DNA from: Thelephora terrestris
Lineage: Eukaryota; Basidiomycota; Agaricomycetes; Thelephorales; Thelephoraceae
Reading direction: 5' to 3'
DNA length: 64,000 nt
NCBI GenBank assembly: GCA_015956445.1
Contig: WIUZ02000021.1
Location: 248,001-312,000 of the forward strand
Below, piece by piece: positions 3,025-51,465 of the stretch. How positions within the stretch are numbered: position 1 is the stretch's first letter; every line of letters begins with the position of its first letter. The notes beneath the pieces are model-generated. The model searched no databases. It saw only the letters and a list, made by a program, of their open reading frames with translations, and was not told the DNA's origin. The translations under genes and the position numbers were made by a program.

Positions 3025-3691
3025 CTGTGATTTTGACTTGGTCGTGATCAGAGCGAATATCCAATGCAGCCGATTTCTATGACCAACACGATGCAGGTGA
3101 ACGATTCGGCGATTTCTGTCAATTACATCAAGCCGCCACCTGTCGCGCGGGCAGTACGTTCTTGGACGAGACCCGGATACGCTCCCCTCGACTGACAGTG
3201 GCCTACGCAGGTCGGAATTTCCTTTTGAACCTAGATCCGTCTTGACTGGTATACCTATCACCGTCGCCCGCATTCGCACGAACGACCGCTGGGGAGGAAG
3301 GACATAAAGCACATACTAACATATCAAAACTTCGTTCGTTACACTCTCACACCTACAAACCTGTAAACTTCGTTTCTTCTCTCTCTCTCTCTACCCAATT
3401 TTTTTTTGTTGTACTCTCATTTGATTGTATAGATGTTATAGGTTTACCGTGAAGGAAGTATTCACACAACGTTCGTTTCTTCCTATCCTTATTCTTTTTC
3501 TTGCATTTTTCTTAGCTCTCTTCGCATTATCCGTCGATTTGAAGGTCGTTGCTTCCGTGTACCATAGAAACATCCCCTCGCCAATATACCATTCGTACTC
3601 CTCGCTTCGGGTCCAGGTCGAATGTTGTCGGACAAATCGCGTGAAGAGGCGCGTTAGGCGCCAGCCAATCGCGACTCTTCCGAAAGCAACC
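3025..3691 (+). promoter_or_regulatory. Intergenic region and probable QCR6 promoter
   Basis: No gene is seen. A CT-repeat and T-rich tract lies at about 3375-3415, a common core-promoter and leader feature in fungal housekeeping genes. An open frame continues upstream from QCR6 to 3425, but it is basic and hydrophobic, unlike the family, so it is treated as leader. Confidence 0.4.
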
Positions 3692-4334
3692 ATGACCCTC
3701 ACTTCATTCGTCTCCTCCCTCTTCTCCACCGTATACGCCGACGCTCCTGCCGAAGAGCAAAAGGCCGAGGAGACCCCGGAAGCCTCTGAAGAGGCCACTG
3801 AGCAAACGGTTGAGGAGGAGGAGGAACCAGAGCCAGAAGACGTGAGTTTCCCCCCAATCTTTTTCTGACGCGGCGGTGTGCCGATTTACATGGACCGTTC
3901 AGTTGCAACCTTTGATTCGGGAAGAATGCCAAAACGGTCCACAATGTGCTCCGTCTACCAAACACTACTTGCACTGTCAGGAAAAGGTAAACAGTGGCAA
4001 GGGTTACAAGGGAGAGGATTGCGTTGAGGAATTGTAAGTTGTTCTCCGTGCACTTGGTCGAATCCGTCGCTGAAATATTTGTTTTGTAGATGTGAGTCTG
4101 CACTATTTCTTTGTGGCTGACTCGTCTGACTTATGGTCACTCCGATTCACTGATTGACAGTCCAGTGAGTATCCTGACTACTATGCATGCCGCACAGCAC
4201 ACCTGATAACCTACGTCACACAGCATGATGCACTGTGCGGACGTACGTATGCTACCCACTCCCTCACCCGTTCCTTGCTCATGCGCACGTATAAGGCTTG
4301 CGCCGCTCCCAAACTCTTCTCAAAGCTCCGCTAG
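3692..4334 (+). CDS. QCR6: Cytochrome bc1 complex subunit 6 (hinge protein), with 2-nt and 4-nt micro-exons
   Basis: This is the acidic hinge subunit of ubiquinol-cytochrome c reductase (complex III), which assists the interaction with cytochrome c at the intermembrane-space face of the inner membrane. The start MTLTSFVSSLFSTVYADAPA is followed by a long Glu/Pro run (residues ~18-50). The Cys-rich helical hairpin follows, with EECQNGPQCAPSTKHYLHC, then GEDCVEEL and the end CADACAAPKLFSKLR. Exons by eye: 3692-3841, 3903-4033, 4090-4091, 4161-4164, 4224-4242, 4296-4334. The sum is 345 nt, or 114 residues, normal for the family. The 2-nt and 4-nt exons are inferred: with them the junction reads E-E-L-F-H-M-M-H-C, the conserved spacing. 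Without them the frame survives but two residues are lost. The start at 3692 is chosen because the acidic region begins right after it. Confidence 0.88.
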
Positions 4335-5875
4335 AGGCTGGAGTTTATACGGTCACGGTGCGTGTGCTCTTTGTCCTCACCAACCCTCTGTACATTGAAG
4401 AAAGTAGGGTTTGATGCATTTAGAGTGCTATCTCGGTCAATCAAGTACTCGTAGCTCCAAAATAGAATACGACATATCTCACTTCCTCTACCTTGTCGAC
4501 GGGTGTGGTTCCTCGTCGTAACGTGAACTAGGAGGTCCTCTCTGAAGACGATGTATCAATACGGAACCACCCTATCAAAGGACGGGAGGAGGTGTAACTT
4601 GTGTCACCCCATGTTACCGGTGTTCTGTGTCCCCAACCGGCTCTTGAAACCTCCCCGCCGTGCATCGCAAGAAACCCTACCCGACGGATGGTTTGCCTCA
4701 ATCCCCGTTTCGCAACAAGCGCCGATCGCTCGGGTTCATCTGTCTCGCGATTATGTTCGATGTAACTTTACTCTTTGTCCAAGAGCCTTGCCATCGCAAT
4801 GCCTCTCGATACTTGGCTTTAGTTTGGAGCTGTGTTGCTCGTCCGACCGGTCACACTACGCCCCGGTGGGGATTGTTCTCCCAAACCGAGTTGGCTGCCG
4901 AACAACCGTGTCCAGTCCGGGCCAGCACGTTGCGTCTGGAAAACTCGATGCTGTAGCAGCTGATGTGCATTTACCAAGATACATCCGTGATATTATACTT
5001 GAAGCAACTGGAACGAATACCGGCCAGGATAATCGACTACATAGGATACTGTGGTCCTGCTATTCTATCGCCTTGGGCAAGCTGGACACGCCCTGGAATA
5101 GGAATTGAACCAATAGGTGATTTGGGTCCTTTGGGGGATGCGAAGCTTCATGCAGCCGCCCTCTGGGATCCTCGACCGATCTTGTGAAGTAAAACTTTTC
5201 GTTGATCCCAGTTACCTTGGTCCTATGGCCCGTGGCGGCCCCATTCTCACACTCCTGGCCTCTCTCATCTCTGGTCCACTCCTAGATGCCAGAGCGTCGT
5301 AATTACCACGGCGATGGAACGTGCCCTCGCACCGTTGAAAGCTGATATCCACTGTGTTTATCGGGAAACACCACATTCACTGATTCCCTTTATCCGTGAA
5401 GTGTTTGACGAACTCCCCGGCTTGGACTACAAAAATCCCCACCATCGCCCCCACCTGCCTCTCGAAAAAGGAGCGGCGGCGCCTGAGGAAAGGGACGGAG
5501 AGGTTTTTTGCCCTAATCGAACGCTCTTCTTACTTTGCCTTGAGGCTCAATTGTCACCAGTCACTATTTGTCTGTATATAAACTTTACTAGAGTGAATCG
5601 CTGGGAACCCGTGGAATTCCCTGAGATCGTGCTTTGAGTTGCAAAATTACCCAAGAGATTACTGTGTATTAGCTTCGTCTTTTGGGGGGAACGGATCCTG
5701 AAGGCATCGCACCACCTCGCACCACCCTCATGGCCCGGGTATCATCATACCCATGGCCCGTTGGTACATCACGCGTCGCGGTCTATACGTGTGAATGTTT
5801 GACGTTTAACATTATGCAGACCAGCTGATAAGTAACTCGCCTCAGGTGCACGGGAGATCCCGACTGCACTCACCA
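4335..5875. other. 1.5-kb region with no supported gene
   Basis: The longest frames (185 codons at 4551-5108 and 107 codons at 5314-5637) have no recognisable domain and no consistent intron joins. I see no repeat, tRNA or transposon end. It may hold the 3' region of QCR6 and the promoter of the F-box gene. Confidence 0.4.
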
Positions 5876-20776: not shown

Positions 20777-23700
20777 GCACAGGTTCTGGTTTTTCCCTCG
20801 GTAATACTGGGGAGGCGACCCGGCCTCCGAGCATACTGCCAACGCCGGTAGAGATGCATGTACGGCTACGCATCTTTGCCGAGCGTCTGTTCACACATTT
20901 GAGTTGGTTGCTTGTGCTTAGTACTGTAGAGTCACCGTCCGCCGCCTATTGCCATCTATCCATTCTCTGTATATATGTAACCGGGCCATGCCATTTGACA
21001 CGACTTTGAGGTATCTGAGCTACGTCACAGCTGTGCTGTTGAAACCGAATCTTTCCGATATAAACATAGCTACCAAGACACGATCTGCATAGCCTGATTG
21101 GCTGTGCACGACCAACATCAAGTGGCTCACCCAAGCCTCAAGGTGTTCCCACTTTCTCTCATCCCCACTTCCGTCCCTATTGAACTTGATTTCGATCCCA
21201 GGATGCAAACGAGTGAGTCTGGTGAAAAGATATAATCAGACGGTTTATATGAAACTACACATTTTTCTAGCAAACCCCGAAATTTTGGGGGAAGCTGGGG
21301 CCAACCCGAAAGCGAGATTTCACTACATGTTCCAACGGGAAGTAGAGGAACACGATCAGGACCTTGAGAAGAAATATGATGAGGACTTGAACACGACCCT
21401 TATCTTCGTGAGTATCGCACTGTTGAGGCAAGATTGGGCCTCACGATCACCACGGTGTTTCACGCAGTCTGGTTTATTCTCCGCCGTGGCATCGGCATTC
21501 ATCATCGACATCCAATCCGAGCTCAGCCCAGATTATGAACAGGCGAACAATGTGTTGCTTGAGATGCTCCTCAACGCCACCACTGGCACCCTACCCCCAA
21601 ATTCTGCGGCGTCCATACCTCGATGGAACGGCCCCGATCCCGTCGTCGTCCAGGTTCAATGCATTCTGTATGCGACCCTGTGTGCGGCCCTCCTAGCAGC
21701 GTTCCTCGCCATGCTCGGGAAACAGTGGCTCAGCCGATACAAGGAAAACGAGACGCGCGGGTCAGCCGCAGACAGGAGCAGGTTGCGCGAGCGGAAGTTA
21801 ACAGGAATTGGGACCTGGAAACTCCATCTTGTTTTGGAGTCCCTGCCCCTCATCCTCCAGTTCGCTTTGTTCCTTTTGGGATTTGCGCTTTCCCGGTACC
21901 TCTGGGAGGTCAACTCCTCGGTCTCATCAGCTGTCATTGCGTTCACGGGTTTTGGGTTCCTTTTTTACCTGTCCATCGTCACGGCGTCCGTGTTCTCCTT
22001 CGATTGCCCGTTCCAAACGCCATTTTCACTTCTGATTCGTTACGCGGTCAGATTGACTACCCCTTACTTACGGAACCTCCGACACACCTTTGGATCCATC
22101 CGGCAATCTCTCCAGCCCGGAGTGCAGCAGGCGGGAATCGGTCTGCCTCTTTCAATTTTCACCGTCAGCAGAGGCCACGACTCAAGAACCGCACTCACTC
22201 CCATAACGACCCAGCCTCCTTGGCCGATTACCCCTCTCTTCGTTCAAGGAAACGATTTGGAGGGCGATAGACTCGACGCCAAGTGTGTCAATATTTTGTT
22301 CGAGATGTCTACCGACATCGACGTTGTCGTTTCGAACATGGATTTCATACCGGAGATCATTTGGCACGGCGGAATCAAAGACGTTCCTCGCAAACGTATC
22401 TACGACATTCTCATCGACTGTTTCGATTTCTCTGGCGCCGACCCGGTCGTGGTTCCCAAGTCACGAAGCGTAGCTTACCTCAGCGCGAGGGCCTTCGTCC
22501 ATATAGAGCTCCAGCGACGATGTATTGTCCAGTACGAGGATCACGAGCGGAACAGCTGGGAAGCCCTTTGTGCCAACCACCGCCCTCTGTTGTCCGCGAA
22601 CAATCGCTTCGACCCTGACCTTGAAGCAGTCCTCTTTATGGTCGATATGGCGCTCGGGTACAATAACGGGTTTTCCTGGGCGGAATCGAAGATGACATTA
22701 CCCCACCGCGCATGGATGTCCCATGTGTTGCTTTACCATGCCTGCCACGAGCGACAAGTGCCAGAGGTCGTGTTAGACTTCGTGGAGAACTCGTTATCAC
22801 TTGAATCAACGAGTAACGCAGTCATCGCAGACTGCTTCTTCATCATCGGGTTGACAATCGGAGTCTCCTTTCACGTCAACGACATCCTTGTGAAGGACAA
22901 AAGGTCAGATTTGAATCTACCCTGGGCCCTGTCCTCCGCTGACCCCTCACCGTCCAGTTATGAGATGGGAGCTATCATCGGGAGCGTCTTCGAAGCCTTC
23001 GAGCGAATATTTTCCTCCGATTCCGTTCAAAACCTGTCTGCCATTCGCGCACTTCAACTCGCAACGCTGATCTCAGGCTTTGGTGTCTGCGACGTCAGTT
23101 ATCGGCTGTTCAAAACGATAATGGCCCTCGATCTCCTGACGGATGAGCATTGGGAGGCTTCCCGCCTTGCAATCTATGCGGCATTCCATCACTGGGAATA
23201 TGTGGCGAACCCAGGGAATCCCAAGGAAATCCTCAAGTTCCTCGACTACCATGTCTGCTTCCTAGGCGCAGAAGAGGAACACGATTCATACATCATGTCC
23301 GCCTTGATTCCACTTGTCCGATTCGATGGACCCGACCTTCTGACATTTGGATGCGCCAGGGACTTCGATTGGACTAGTCCATCCTTTGTGAGAGGGGTTT
23401 GTTCAATGATGGAACCTCGCCGTCTCCCCTCACTCAAGGCGAAAGACCTTTATCTAGTAGCCCTCCTATCGGATAGCTGGTTCCACGGCTCGGCACCCGC
23501 CCTAAAGCCAGAGGATATGTCTAAATTCTGTGAAGGCATTGCCTCACACATGGACAAGATTTCTCATGTCCCACTTCCCAGGAAGGCAGCTGTCACCGTC
23601 CTATTTGGAATGCTCTGCTCCCCGGAGTGGAGGAGGCATATACCCACCAGGTTTTGGAGAGTGCTCGCATACTGCACTCAGGCTTACAACACGGAATCCG

Positions 23701-24656
23701 CCAGGTGGTGTTTGCAAAACGCTATCGAGCTGTTGGAATTTACGAGGGGGTTACCTGATGGGGAAGGGTTGAAGTGGTGGTGCGGAACGCTGTGGCTCTG
23801 CTACAACAAGCTTGATACCACGGTTCGGGATGAGGTCAAGCAGATTGCAGCGGTCATGTTGCGCGACGATGGTCTCTCGGACCTTAACTTGTACCTCAGT
23901 CTCATGCAAGAAGAACTCAAGAGGATCCAGCAAGAGCTAAACGCGCTCCCTGACGAGACAATCGGACGGGGTCCTCCTGGGAGGGAAATACAAGCTCGCT
24001 TGATCACAATGGAGGGGAATTATGATCAATTGGCTCGAATTGCAGGGAGGCGGTAGAGATCGAACCCAACACATTTGTAGTATGTGTATGTGTCGTTCAA
24101 GCCCGGATGTTTCGTTTTATGTCGGTTAACAGTTGCCGAGCCTCCACGGATTATGTACACTGGAGGGCCCAAGATCGTGCTCAACTGCAGGGTGCGGTGA
24201 TGGAACAAAAACGTGCGCACGAGATAGTCGTCTTTGGGCAATATAATTATTTGGACACCTTGACTGGTGAGGCCTTGAGGAGAAGTGACATTGCTGCCAC
24301 TAACTGGCGACGTCCCAGACACGCCCCTGTCTTTTACCCGAGTCAAAGCCACCAGGAAAATGTAAACTGGCACATCATCCTCACTTCAGAATTCGAGGCT
24401 GAATTCCAGCCTAGATTACGACGTCATGTTGAAAAATATGTTCGTAGCTAGTAGCGATCCCTCTCTCCTCGACAATCATCATACCGTTGTCCTCTCCGTT
24501 CTCGCCCCGCTATCTCTGAGCGTTGCCGCCTCGCGGCGGCTTCCAGATAATCCGATCTGGAAGTCACCGAGACTCTATGTAGCGACCGAGGCGATTCCAG
24601 CTGTCTAATGTTGGTGAACAGCGGTTACTCGAGGAACGAGTTTGACGAGGGTGGTA
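20777..24656 (+). repeat. Inverted duplicated DUF6535 unit, copy A
   Basis: This ~3.9-kb segment matches 47559-51465 in opposite orientation. The homology covers a 5' flank of about 400 bp, the DUF6535 gene and about 600 bp of 3' flank. On the left it begins where the TIR element ends. On the right it stops at about 24656, immediately before direct repeat copy 2. No terminal inverted repeats of the unit itself are seen. Confidence 0.85.
21203..24056 (+). CDS. DUF6535 membrane protein, intact copy
   Basis: This is a large protein of the basidiomycete DUF6535 family, function unknown. By eye exon 1 is only 10 coding nt (21203-21212, MQT), exon 2 is 21271-21407 and exon 3 is 21468-24056. They sum to 2,736 nt, or 911 residues, with no internal stop. 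The N-terminal DUF6535 module has the amphipathic LFSAVASAFIIDIQSELSPD. It also has four likely transmembrane helices: QCILYATLCAALLAAFLAML, LPLILQFALFLLGFALSRYL, VSSAVIAFTGFGFLFYLSIV and part of the first, at residues ~50-230. The long C-terminal half is soluble and helical without a named domain. The gene sits within an insertion between galactokinase and an oxidoreductase. Its mutated partner lies at 48186-51027 (-). Confidence 0.8.
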
Positions 24657-33220: not shown

Positions 33221-34651
33221 ATGTCTACTCAATCGAAACCGGTAAAGCAGCAGCAGTTGACCCCGTTTGGTCATGCCCTTGCTGGCGCGTTGGGGGCCTG
33301 CTTCAGCACTGCGTGAGTCTCTCGGTAATCGTCGTTTGTCCCGGTCATCTTGCTTCGCCTCGCCCCCGTGTGCTCACCCTCTTCCCTATATAGTGTCGTG
33401 TATCCACTTGATGTGTGAGTGCTATGCGTCTGGTGATTATGCCACTTGCCACGGGGCCAGGGCTGAATTAGGTTGCTTATCCAGCGCCAAGACCCGTATC
33501 CAGGCCGAGAAAAGCTCAAAACCGCAAATGGGGATGTTCCGTTTGCTTCTCGCAATTTTGAAGGACGATGGTGTTTGGGGGTTGTACAGAGGCTTCACGG
33601 CCACGATGTTGAACACCTTCTCGATGCGTACGTCCTGGGCCTGACCCACTGGCTTTACGAAATCCCGGAAGCCGTTGCCCCCGCATCTAACCGCATCTTT
33701 TGGTTTTGTGATTGCAGAATACGCGTATTTCTTCTTCTACTCGCTGGTTCGCGGCGCATATATCAAGAGGAGGACCGCGCAGAGGGGAAATGCGCCCGGG
33801 TTGTCCACTGCGGTGGAGTTAATGCTTGGAGCCGCTGCGGGAGGTTTGGCTCAGATCTTTACCATTCCTGTTTCGGTGATTGCTACTCGGCAACAGGTTG
33901 GGAGCTCTACGCGGACGGTTAGAAGGAAGGTGGTCGTCCCCTCAGCTAATGGGACCGCGATTGAAGGCGCGAACGGCAACGGCGAGGATGAAGGGTTCGC
34001 AGAGAAGTGGATCGAAGAGGAGGAGTACGTGGATAACTCTTTCTGGGGCGTCGGAAGGGAAATCGTTCGGGAAGAAGGCGTCACTGGTCTTTGGCTGGGT
34101 ATCAAACCCGGGTTAGTGTTGACCGTTAACCCCGCGATTACCTACGGGATGTTCGAGCGGATCAAGTCCGTTCTTCTCTTGGCTCAGGAGAAAGCCGCGT
34201 CCGTCGCCGCTCCGTCGAATGGGAAGCTGACGCCGGGTACGAACTTCCTCGTCGGAGCGTTGAGCAAGACCTTGGCCACGGTGGTTACGTATCCGTATAT
34301 TATGGCCAAGGTGAGGATTCAGACTCGTGGATCTGACGCGCGGATGGCCCAGGAGAAGGGCCTGCCAGCCCCCCCGCATCACGCTTACCATCATGGCGCC
34401 AACTCGAAACACCCTGGTGCCCTGGACCTCTTGAGGGCCGTATATAAGAGAGAAGGTCTGGTTGGGTGGTATCAGGTCAGTTTGTTAGATCAAGTTTCTG
34501 AAACTTCCCGTTGACGATAGCGTTCCTGCAGGGAATGGGCGCACAGATCGTCAAGGCGGTCCTCTCGCAGGCGCTTTTGTTCATGTCCAAGGACCAGTTT
34601 GAACACTGGGCGTTGGCTATCATGGCCATGCTTTATGTAGCGAAAAAATAA
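33221..34651 (+). CDS. ANT1: Mitochondrial-carrier family protein, peroxisomal adenine-nucleotide type
   Basis: The protein is a six-helix SLC25 carrier resembling yeast Ant1 and Pmp47, which import ATP into peroxisomes. Repeat 1 shows VVYPLDVAKTRIQAE, the P-x-D-x-x-[KR] signature, with LLAILKDDGVWGLYRGFTAT. Repeat 2 has IFTIPVSVIATRQQV, then the second-half motif VREEGVTGLWLGIKPGL. Repeat 3 has VTYPYIMAKVRIQTR and YKREGLVGWYQGMGAQIVKA. The second exon is a 21-nt micro-exon (33394-33414) carrying most of VVYPLDV. The middle loop (about 60 residues, Gly/Glu-rich) is longer than usual. The end is ...FMSKDQFEHWALAIMAML to the TAA at 34649-34651. Peroxisomal location is inferred from similarity only. 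Confidence 0.82.
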
Positions 34652-39011: not shown

Positions 39012-40036
39012 CTCCATCTGTCTCGCCGATCAGCATCGATTCGTGCTTCTCACCACCAAGTTGAGTACCTTTTCACCTGTCATCTTTGCCCATTCTATAC
39101 TATTTTTTCCATCCCTGGCACAAGCATCTGTTTCGCCCTCGTTTTCCACTTTGTTCCGACTTGACCCAACACTATTGTGTCTTCATAGTATTCGCACCTA
39201 GCCGTCCACACGAGAACCATGTATCACTATTACCTAACCTTTTCCTTTTTCTCCCTCGTCGACTTGTTGTGTCTTTTAACTCTTGCTATTTGTCAAGTTT
39301 TTTTTTCCACTCCAATCTATTTTTCGCCATCTTACTGTCTTCGACACAATCTTGTGTAACACCGCCTTCCTCGCTCCTTTATCCCGTCCTCCGCCCTCTT
39401 CTCTGATGCCCGCCTCCTCCACACCTAACTACCGTTCGACGATCCGTGAATTATTCCCTTATTGTTTTTGTCTTCCTTCCCCCAATGACTCGTCCTCTTC
39501 GACTCACTCCTGATCAACTATTACCCAACTCCAACGCGCGTTAATTCCCTGTAAATATCCTTATGACTTACGCATCTCACGTGTACCCGGAATGTATCTT
39601 GGTCATCTTGTTTCTTTTCCGTACCCAACCGAATGAATGTTAATGTCCGCGGGCGTGCAGGCTGGGGGACCCAAGAGATAGGTTCCTGGCTGTGGGTTAG
39701 GCTCACAAGAAGAGAGTGGAGGTCATTTCGATTGCGTTATGTGCTACAGGATTGCGGAAAGGAAAAACGAGAGGCTAAGCCTGGCCAGGTAGATGAGTAA
39801 ATTTAGCTCCACTACTGGGATAACTCTGTATTAGCGTATATATCATTAGGGCGAAAATGAGGATGGCGCGTGGCGGAAATGTACCACCTCTATAGGGGTC
39901 CTGAGGGAATGAAGAGGGGGGCGAAGCCTAAGTTTCTGTCCCTCAAAGTCAAATCTACGAAATCCCCCCTCCCACCGGAAGGAGTATTAACCTCAAGCAC
40001 TAAGGAAAGGTATGACGGGGGCCCCGTAGGAGCTTT
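39012..40036. other. Convergent 3' region, pyrimidine-rich
   Basis: The + strand from about 39060 to 39520 is strongly T/C-rich and probably forms the 3' untranslated region of the Whi5-like gene. The rest, up to the Lon stop, shows no gene. Confidence 0.4.
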
Positions 40037-47558: not shown

Positions 47559-50500
47559 TACCATTCTCGTTGAACTCATTCCTCGAGTAACCGCTGGGAT
47601 CACCTCGGTCGCTACATGTCTTGGTGACTTCCAGATCGGATTATCTGGAAGCCGCAACTCTCAGAGCGATAGCGGGGCGAAAACGGAGAGGACAACGGTA
47701 TGATCATTGTCGAGGAGAGAGGGATCACTACTAACTTATCTGCGAACATATCGCAGGAAATATATATCACTGGAAATCAACATGACGTCGTAATCATGTG
47801 AACATGTGCCAGTTTACATTTTCCTGGTGCCTTCATCAGGCTTTGACTCGGGGAAAACACAGGGGCATGTCGTATAATACCCCCTTCCAGCTTCACAGAC
47901 TGGGACGTCGCCAGTTAGTGGCAGCAATGTCACTTCTCCTCAAGGCCTCACCAGTCAAGGTGTCCAAATAATTATATTGCCCAAAGATGACGATTATCTC
48001 GTGCGCAAGTCTTTGTTCCATCACCACACCTCGCAGTTGAGCACGATCTTGGGCCCTCTAGTGTACTTAATCCAGTGGATGTGGAGGCTCGGCAACTAGT
48101 AGCCGACAGAAAACGAAAAAAAAAACGGGCTTGGACGATACATACATCGACTGTATACATACTACAAATGTGTTGGGTTCGATCGCTACCGCCTCCCCGC
48201 AATCCGAGCGAATTGGTCATAATTCCCCTCCATGGTGACCAAGCGAGCTTGTACTTTCCTTCCAGAAAAATCCCGCCTTTTCTCCTCAGTGAGTGCGTTC
48301 ACCTCTTGCTGGATGCTCTTGAGCTCTTCTTGCATGAGACTGTTAAGGTCCGAGAAACCATCTTCGCGCAACATGACCGCTGCGATCTTCTTGACCTCGT
48401 CCCGAACCGTGGCATCAAGCTTGTCGTAGCAGAGCCACAGCGTCCCGTACCACCACTTCAATCCTTCCCCATCAGGCAAGCCCCTCGTAAACTCCAACAA
48501 CTCGATAGCGTTTCGCAAACACCACCTGACGGATTCCGTGTTGAAAGCCTGAGTGCAGTATGCGAGCACTCTCCAGAACCTGGTCGTTATGTGCTTCCTC
48601 CACTCCGGGGAGCAGAGCATTCCGAATAGGACGGTGACACCTGCCTTCGTCTGAGTTGGACGATGAATAACATTGTCCATGAAAAAGGCAATGTCTTCAC
48701 AGAATTTAGACATCTCCTCTGGCTTCAGGGCGGGTGCCGAGCAATGAAGCCAGGTATCCGATAGGATGGCTACTAGATCAATGACTTTCCCCCGGAGTGG
48801 GATGAGACGGCGAGGTTCCATGATTGAACAAATCCCTCTCACAAAGGATGGACTAGTCCAGTTGAAGTCACTGACGCTTCCAAACCCCAGAAGGCCGGCA
48901 CCATCGACTCCGACAAGTGGCCTCAAGGCGGACATGATGTATGAATCATGATCCTTGTTTGCGCCTAGTAGGCCGACGTGGTAGTCAAGGAACTTGAGGA
49001 TTACCTTGAGGTCCCCTTGTTTTGCCGTGTGCCTCCAGTCCCAAAATGCTCCATAGACTGCAAAGCGAGCAGCTGCCCAATGCTGATCCGTCAGGTTATC
49101 AGGAGCCATTATTGTTTTGAACAGCTGATAGCTAGCGTCGCAGACACCAAAGTGTGACATCCGCGTTGCAAGTCGGAGCGCGTGAAGGGCTGATGGCATT
49201 CGGATGGAGTCGGAGGAAAATATCTCCGCAAAAGTTCCAAAGACACCCTTGACGATAGATTCCATCTCAGAACTGGATGGTGAGAAGTCAGCGGGTTTGA
49301 ACATTCAAGCGAATTTCAGACCCAACCTTTTGTCCTTCACAAGGATGTCGTTGACGTTAAAGGAGACTCCGATTGTCAATCCAATGATGAAGAAGCAGTC
49401 TGCGATGACGGCTTTATTCGATGATTCAAGTAACAATGAGTTCTCCACGAATTCTAACACGACCTCCGGCACTTGTCGCTCGTGGCAGGCATGGTAAAGC
49501 AACACGTGGGACATCCATGCGCGGTGGGGTAATGTCATCTTCGATTCTGCCCAGGAGAACCTGTTATTGTTCCCGAGCGCCATATCGACCATAAAGAGGA
49601 CTGCTTCAAGGTCAGGGTCGAAGCGATTGTTTGCGGACAACAGAGGGCGGTGGTTGGCACAAAGGGCTTCCCAGCTGTTCCGCTCGTGATCCTCGTACTG
49701 GACAATACATCGTCGCTGGAGCTCTATATGGACGAAGGCCCTCGCGCTGAGGTAAGCTACGCCTCGTGACTTGGGAACTACGACCGGGTCGGCGCCAGAG
49801 AAATCGAAACAGTCCATGAGAATGTCGTAGATACGTTTGCGAGGAACTTCTTTGATTCCGCTGTGCCAAATGATCTCCGGTATGAAATCCATGTTCGAAA
49901 TGACGACGTCAATGTCGGTAGACATCTCGAACAAACGATTGATACACTTGGCGTCGAGTCTATCGCCCTCCAAATCATTTTCCCAAACGAAGAGAGGGGT
50001 ACTCGGCCAAGAGGGCTGGGTCGTTATGGAAGCGAGTGCGGTTCTTGAGCCGTGGCCTCTGCTGACGGTGAAAATTGAAAGAGGCAGACCGATTCCCGCC
50101 TGCTGCACTCCGGGCTGGAGAGATTGCTGGATGGATCCAAAGGTGTGTCGGAGGTTCCGTAAGTAAGGGGTAGCCAATCTGACCGCGTAACGAATCAGAA
50201 GTGAAAATGGCGTTTGGAACGGGCAATCGAAGGAGAATATGGACGCCGTGACGATGGACAAGTAAAAAAGGGACCCAACACCCGTGAACGCAATGACAAC
50301 TGACGAGACGGAGGAGTTAACTTTCCAGAGGTACCGAGAAAGCGCAAATCCTAAAAGGAACAAAGCGAACTGGAGGATGAGGGGCAGGGACTCCAAAACA
50401 AGATGGAGTTTCCAGGTCCCAATTCCTGTTAACTTCCGCTCGCGCAACCTGCTCTTGTCTGCGGCTGACCCGCGGGTCTCGTTTTCCTTGTATCGGCTGA

Positions 50501-51465
50501 GCCACTGTTTCCCGAGCATGGCGAGGAACGCTGCTAGGAGGGTCGCACACAAGGTCGCGTACAGAATGCATTGAACCTGGACGACGACGGGATTGGGGCC
50601 GTTCCATCGAGGTATGGACGCCGCAGAATTTGGGGGTAGGGTGCCAGTGGTGGCGTTGAGGAGCATCTCAAGCAACACATTGTTTGCCTGTTCGTAATCT
50701 GGGCTGAGCTCGGATTGGATGTCGATGATGAATGCCGATGCCACGGCGGAGAATAAACCAGACTGCGTGAAACACCGTGGTGATCGTTAGACCCAATCTT
50801 GCCTCAACAGCGCGATACTCACGAAGATAAGGGTCGTGTTCAAGTCCTCATCATATTTCTTCTCAAGGTCTTGATCGTGTTCCTCTACTTCCCGTTGGAA
50901 CATGTAGTGGAATCTCGCTTTCGGGTTGGCCCCAGCTTCCCCCAAAATTTCGGGGTTTGCTAGAAAAATGTGTAGTTTCATATAAACCGTCTGATTATGT
51001 CTTTTTACCAGACTCACTCGCTTGCATCCTGGGATCGAAATCGACTCAATAGGGACGGAAGTGTGGATGAGAGAAAGTTGGGATGAGAGAAAGTGGGAAC
51101 ACCTCGAGGCATGGGTGAGCCCCTTGATATTGGTCGTGCACAGCCAATCAGGCCACGCAGGTCGTGTCTTGGTAGCCGTGTTAATATCGGAAAAAATCGG
51201 TTTTGACAGCACAGCTGCGGCGTAGCTCAGATACCTCAAAGTTGTGTCAAATAGCATGGCTCGGTTACATACATTCAGAGAATGGATAGATGGCAATAGG
51301 CGGCGGACGGTGACTCTCCAGTACTAAGCACAAGCAACCAACTCAAATGTTTTAACAGACGGTCGGCAAAGATACGTGACCGTACACATTTTTGCCGGCG
51401 TTGGCTGTATTCTAGGAGGTAACCTCCCAGTATTACCGAAGAAATAACCCAAAGCTGGTACATAC
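47559..51465 (-). repeat. Inverted duplicated DUF6535 unit, copy B
   Basis: This is the opposite-orientation partner of 20777-24656, about 23 kb apart. Homology ends near 47559 on the left (matching ~24656) and near 51465 on the right (matching ~20777). Non-coding flanks are conserved along with the gene, so the copied unit is larger than the coding region. No terminal inverted repeat or target duplication was recognised. Confidence 0.85.
48186..51027 (-). pseudogene. DUF6535 gene, copy with a nonsense codon
   Basis: The start matches copy A: ATG at 51027 with a tiny first exon (MQA) before a GTGAGT donor, then the main frame from about 50765. The protein parallels copy A closely (for example WKLHLVLESLPLILQFALFL unchanged). 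An in-frame TGA at 49305-49307 stands where copy A has TGG (Trp), and the frame is open again to 48186 (RIAGRR). Translation would give about 530 residues with the whole membrane module but without the C-terminal half. It may be a pseudogene or a truncated but expressed membrane protein. Confidence 0.75.

Follow-up and report, generated by a model that had tools for sequence, protein, structure and literature searches.

The excerpt of PMC12940212 used here, which cites exons of 2-5 bp for Arabidopsis, Drosophila and humans, describes a single-nucleotide exon in the Fusarium gene CYP621A that is supported by reads and orthologues. Like the exons of QCR6 considered below, this ultra-small fungal exon was deduced from the reading frame and a conserved motif within an over-long intron (139 nt, compared with a median of 56 nt in F. 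graminearum), and it lies inside a conserved codon. However, the CYP621A case is one exon in an ascomycete P450 gene, and at 1 nt it is smaller than the AT exon proposed here. In Arabidopsis, the 1-nt exon of APC11 has been demonstrated by experiment, and Guo and Liu suggest intron definition with recursive, stepwise splicing for it (PMC4674806, in excerpt). This exon is constitutive and phase-breaking, as the QCR6 microexons would be, and the 1-nt exon of plant VPS55 shares GTRAGT donors with them (PMC8831610, in excerpt), whereas both plant cases are single microexons that have been experimentally tested or RNA-verified (PMC4674806, PMC8831610). A first-pass annotation of the present locus placed a 2-nt exon at the known limit of splicing, which is overstated because exons of 1 nt have been shown in plants (Arabidopsis, PMC4674806) and one with read support is reported from Fusarium (PMC12940212).

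Adjacent pairs of microexons have also been described. According to the excerpts of the respective papers, 5-nt and 12-nt microexons missed by annotation stand next to each other in a rice transcript (PMC8831610) and in a Peptidase M1 gene of Zygnema (PMC11096116), an arrangement of two as in QCR6, but these exons are larger, occur in plants and algae and are RNA-verified. Human RPS24 contains several consecutive microexons in a housekeeping gene, but they are alternatively spliced (PMC11162997, in excerpt). Among basidiomycetes, the P450 genes of Phanerochaete chrysosporium resemble QCR6 in having very short exons and small introns, although the shortest exon reported in the excerpt of PMC1184071 is 6 bp, in contrast to the 2 and 4 nt proposed here. 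The excerpt of PMC11121469 describes an unannotated fungal microexon in Xlr2 of Trichoderma virens, but it is 20 nt long and alternatively spliced. Fungal stwintrons are complex introns excised by consecutive reactions, as is proposed below for QCR6, yet by the definition in the excerpt of PMC7138796 a stwintron leaves nothing in the mRNA, whereas 2 and 4 nt would be kept in QCR6. In the open-licence literature, neither a tandem as small as 2+4 nt nor a basidiomycete exon of less than 6 nt was found among the matches listed, and the excerpts of PMC13149111 and PMC8042270 make no mention of 1- or 2-nt exons. The element without a counterpart among those matches is the tandem, frame-coupled arrangement of 2 and 4 nt; ultra-small exons themselves are already known.

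The window analysed here is the whole stretch of 64,000 nucleotides of Thelephora terrestris DNA, in which the QCR6 gene occupies 3692-4334 on the forward strand and is recognised by its match to the Pfam family UCR_hinge (PF02320). Exon 1 (3692-3841, 150 nt) encodes the acidic N-terminal part in a frame open from the ATG and ends at a GTGAGT donor, and it is followed by intron 1 (3842-3902, 61 nt; GTGAGT to TTCAG, with CTGAC 34 nt upstream of its 3' end). Exon 2 (3903-4033, 131 nt), which lies inside the UCR_hinge match, ends in GAG GAA TT immediately before GTAAGT. The next longer coding segment downstream is a small exon of 19 nt (4224-4242; C ATG ATG CAC TGT GCG GAC), which is separated by the last intron (4243-4295, 53 nt) from the last coding exon (4296-4334; ACAAPKLFSKLR and the stop codon); the 19-nt exon aligns to hinge proteins in the PDB. 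With AAG as its acceptor and nothing that matches YTRA as a branch site, the last intron is weaker by consensus than the introns around the microexons; its donor is GTACGT.

Between 4033 and 4224, two very small segments are each bounded by a consensus acceptor and donor and by introns of normal length. The first is AT (4090-4091), preceded by TAG (TTTTGTAG) and followed by GTGAGT; the second is TCCA (4161-4164), preceded by CAG (TTGACAG) and followed by GTGAGT. The intervals around them would be intron 2 (4034-4089, 56 nt; GTAAGT to TTTTGTAG), intron 3 (4092-4160, 69 nt; GTGAGT to TTGACAG) and intron 4 (4165-4223, 59 nt; GTGAGT to CACACAG). Branch-like sites lie upstream of the 3' end by 40 and 31 nt (CTGAC) and 7 nt (CTGAT) in intron 3, and by 46 nt (CTGAC) and 17 nt (CTGAT) in intron 4. 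Intron 2 contains only CTGAA, 16 nt before its 3' end, which is off the CTRAY consensus and counts against the microexon reading.

A re-reading of the sequence confirms the bases, coordinates, phases and intron lengths (56, 69 and 59 nt) that the first-pass annotation had given for AT and TCCA. As it had also proposed, direct joining of 4033 to 4224 is in phase and two residues short (EEFMMHC), inclusion of both segments gives EELFHMMHC, and inclusion of AT alone or TCCA alone breaks the reading frame in both cases. AT would complete a Leu codon with its third base and begin the codon of the conserved Phe, and TCCA would supply the second and third bases of that Phe codon and the first two bases of a His codon; only the two together keep the frame and restore the conserved motif. 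Joined with both microexons, the exons encode a protein of 114 residues that matches UCR_hinge over profile positions 1-65 of 65 with 96.0 bits (cut-off 27.2).

To compare the possible splice paths, exon 1 was held fixed together with the first and last introns. A path could leave from any GT at 3995-4060 and had to reach the exon that ends at 4242 through an AG-bounded start at 4075-4236; it could include none, one or two inner exons (1-60 nt each), and every intron had to measure 40 nt or more. The resulting 360 paths yield 23 distinct open in-frame proteins, which were scored with a profile built from ten relatives. AT+TCCA ranks first (67.0 bits), ahead of a 6-nt exon ATGTGA (60.5 bits) and a 3-nt exon at 4166-4168 (58.5 bits), and direct joining ranks sixth (54.6 bits); the other 22 proteins are weaker than AT+TCCA and were rejected. 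Among the enumerated paths, only AT+TCCA and the direct join use GTRAGT at all donors and YAG at all acceptors, and AT+TCCA is the sole microexon path in which every donor is GTRAGT. On protein and splice-site grounds, AT and TCCA as predicted microexons are accordingly the best-scoring solution among those enumerated, which supports the reading of the first-pass annotation.

The second-ranked path, which the first-pass annotation had overlooked, reads positions 4090-4095 as one exon, ATGTGA, with the same TAG acceptor as AT and a GTCTGC donor. It keeps the frame and restores the correct length and spacing (E-E-L-C-D-M-M-H), and its Pfam score is 90.7 bits. Its donor, however, matches only one of the four RAGT positions while a GTGAGT lies four bases upstream, the conserved Phe is replaced by Cys, the second intron would be 128 nt long, and the YAG and GTGAGT that flank TCCA are left, along with that site, unaccounted for. 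We regard a single ATGTGA exon as very improbable.

The protein comparison also bears on the possibility that 4034-4223 is one intron of 190 nt, that QCR6 is two residues short, and that the sites inside it are mere decoys or what remains of a nested intron. The two outer sites are good and in phase, and the shorter protein, at 82.5 Pfam bits, is still well past the cut-off of 27.2, but it scores 13.5 bits below the protein with AT+TCCA. In phmmer searches against the PDB, each of the 32 hinge sequences listed by both searches gains in score when the microexons are included, and the best E-value changes from 3e-13 to 4.1e-10 upon direct joining. When the directly joined protein is aligned to PDB hinge proteins, a two-residue gap falls exactly at the junction in three of three alignments displayed.

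The spacing of conserved residues points in the same direction. The ten relatives are PDB-derived and represent 10 of 14 aligned sequences, u159052, u93134, u5381 and u116611 being omitted as near-copies of the human or yeast proteins, and the remaining PDB hinge sequences were used solely in the comparison of the 32 scores; to our knowledge, no basidiomycete is among the ten. From the Cys of the second helix to the C-terminal [LIV]F, the distance is 19 residues in all ten (for example, positions 38 and 57 in u157237), and in the window protein it is 19 with the microexons and 17 without. The Cys-to-Cys distance is 14 residues in all eight of the ten relatives that have both Cys, and it is 14 with the microexons and 12 without. 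When the window protein is aligned to six of its relatives, four columns are invariant (C27, C42, F47 and F62), one of which is the Phe that would be split across the microexons (T from AT, TC from TCCA). This Phe is kept in nine of the ten relatives, with Glu in its place in u162945. The 19-residue spacing and the Phe in the second-helix segment are both present with AT+TCCA and both absent upon direct joining. For the motif E-E-[LF]-F-[HD]-x-x-H, which the first-pass annotation had taken as conserved, the spacing holds in all ten relatives, whereas the exact letters occur in only five (four fungi and human); plant-type relatives read GQYFDYW. Two scans of prokaryote contigs and two of viral contigs found no relative; the two alignment scans used one pattern that covers this very intron site, and they are blind to a similarly built gene.

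Sites of this kind can arise by chance, and several controls indicate how often. Single sites of the form YAG(1-8 nt)GTRAGT occur 10 times on the forward and 3 times on the reverse strand of the window, with 4.9 expected per strand; an AT or TCCA site alone is therefore weak evidence, since 13 sites on both strands stand against about 10 expected. When a site must also have, within 40-110 nt on either side, a GTRAGT donor upstream and a YAG acceptor downstream, two sites remain on the forward strand (AT and TCCA) and one on the reverse strand, with an expectation of 0.087 per randomised strand. The reverse-strand site is a single-microexon-like chain at 39508-39509 (CAG, GA, GTGAGT, preceded by a GTRAGT donor and followed by a YAG). 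A chain of two microexons occurs once in the two strands of the window, in QCR6, and in none of 150 randomised 64-kb strands, so that a single 190-nt intron would leave the double chain of strong sites as a coincidence absent from all of these strands.

Dinucleotide shuffles of the 190-nt stretch provide a further control. With strict sites, the motif [LF]-F-[HD] is restored in 0 of 200,000 shuffles for introns of 40-110 nt and in 2 of 150,000 for introns of 40-150 nt; with looser GTRNGT donors it is restored in 8 of 150,000, and with any GT and AG in 85 of 60,000, a figure that weighs against the microexon reading. The motif in these tests was not chosen blind, because it came from the first-pass annotation and from recall and was then found in the PDB sequences. 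Weighing the lost Phe, the shortened 14- and 19-residue spacings, the lower Pfam score and the coincidence of sites, we consider one 190-nt intron very unlikely. A search with Rfam on 3600-4500 gave three matches far below the cut-offs, none of which overlaps 4034-4223, and a snoRNA or other RNA gene as the cause of a long intron was rejected.

AT and TCCA are thus very probably two adjacent constitutive microexons of QCR6, as predicted from the DNA, and the 190 nt at 4034-4223 most likely consist of three ordinary short introns of 56, 69 and 59 nt and not one long intron; what is directly established is the splice sites, the phases, the reading frame, the fit to the protein family and the rarity by chance. 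The six added bases would build the Leu-Phe-His codons over four exons, with the Phe codon divided between the microexons, and the mRNA junction would read GAGGAATT-AT-TCCA-CATGATG. In other Agaricomycetes, a QCR6 gene without these introns would on this reading run uninterrupted as TTATTCCAC or a synonymous sequence. Skipping both microexons would keep the frame and remove two residues inside the conserved Cys-to-Cys segment. The survival of the frame also permits mixed splicing, in which full and double-skipped forms coexist and the two microexons serve as an alternative cassette of two residues. The deletion would, however, hit a respiratory subunit in one of its conserved parts, so that the short form is unlikely to be useful, and we judge such a cassette extremely improbable.

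For the two constitutive microexons, a possible route of removal follows from the lengths involved. Since the QCR6 introns are short, each may be recognised end to end by intron definition, and splicing factors are unlikely to sit on both ends of a 2-nt exon simultaneously, so that the introns are probably spliced out one by one. Excision of intron 2, for example, would join AT to the 131-nt exon, whose new end would then be followed by a normal GTGAGT donor; TCCA would be joined likewise in the next step. Each step would leave an exon of normal size beside a fresh GTGAGT, and the order of removal could run either way. The scheme resembles recursive splicing, except that 2 or 4 nt would be retained per step, and the geometry of the sites is compatible with recursive splicing through a re-created 5' splice site. 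The protein fit favours retention of AT and TCCA over their loss as in a stwintron.

Short introns and small exons are found elsewhere in the window. Within a permitted length of 40-110 nt, a rough intron finder detects 25 introns of 50-97 nt (median 62), compared with 9.25 expected by chance, and a stricter setting detects 16 (median 63), compared with 1.75; the list is rough because the threshold was lowered after earlier settings gave 1 and 1 to 5 introns, and the 40-110 nt range has no bearing on the frequency of 190-nt introns. Small exons recur, as in the 19-nt exon of QCR6 (4224-4242) and a 21-nt exon (33394-33414) between introns of 81 and 70 nt in a gene of the mitochondrial carrier family (33221-34310, forward strand). 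The 21-nt exon provides residues of the YPLDVAKTRIQAE carrier signature, and when it is skipped the frame is kept and the Pfam score falls from 77.0 to 46.0 bits (31 lost). Additionally, family matches identify two genes of DUF6535 (PF20153), at 21093-24053 on the forward and 49308-50786 on the reverse strand, a family that we take to be typical of Agaricomycetes, the mushroom-forming fungi.

It is probable, in our assessment, that QCR6, a core gene of respiration, carries a tandem, constitutive, frame-coupled pair of exons of 2 and 4 nt that split a conserved codon between them, with stepwise removal through short-intron definition, that this is the smallest such tandem known to us, and that it is a sign of many unannotated exons of less than 6 nt in mushroom genomes. 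If true, nature would have provided a very tight test of the spliceosome on exons too small for recognition as exons, with two out-of-phase microexons in tandem in a housekeeping gene, where failure is presumably costly. If the arrangement is shared, QCR6 models would be predicted wrong at this place, as two residues short, truncated or frameshifted, and such genomes would require microexon-aware annotation.
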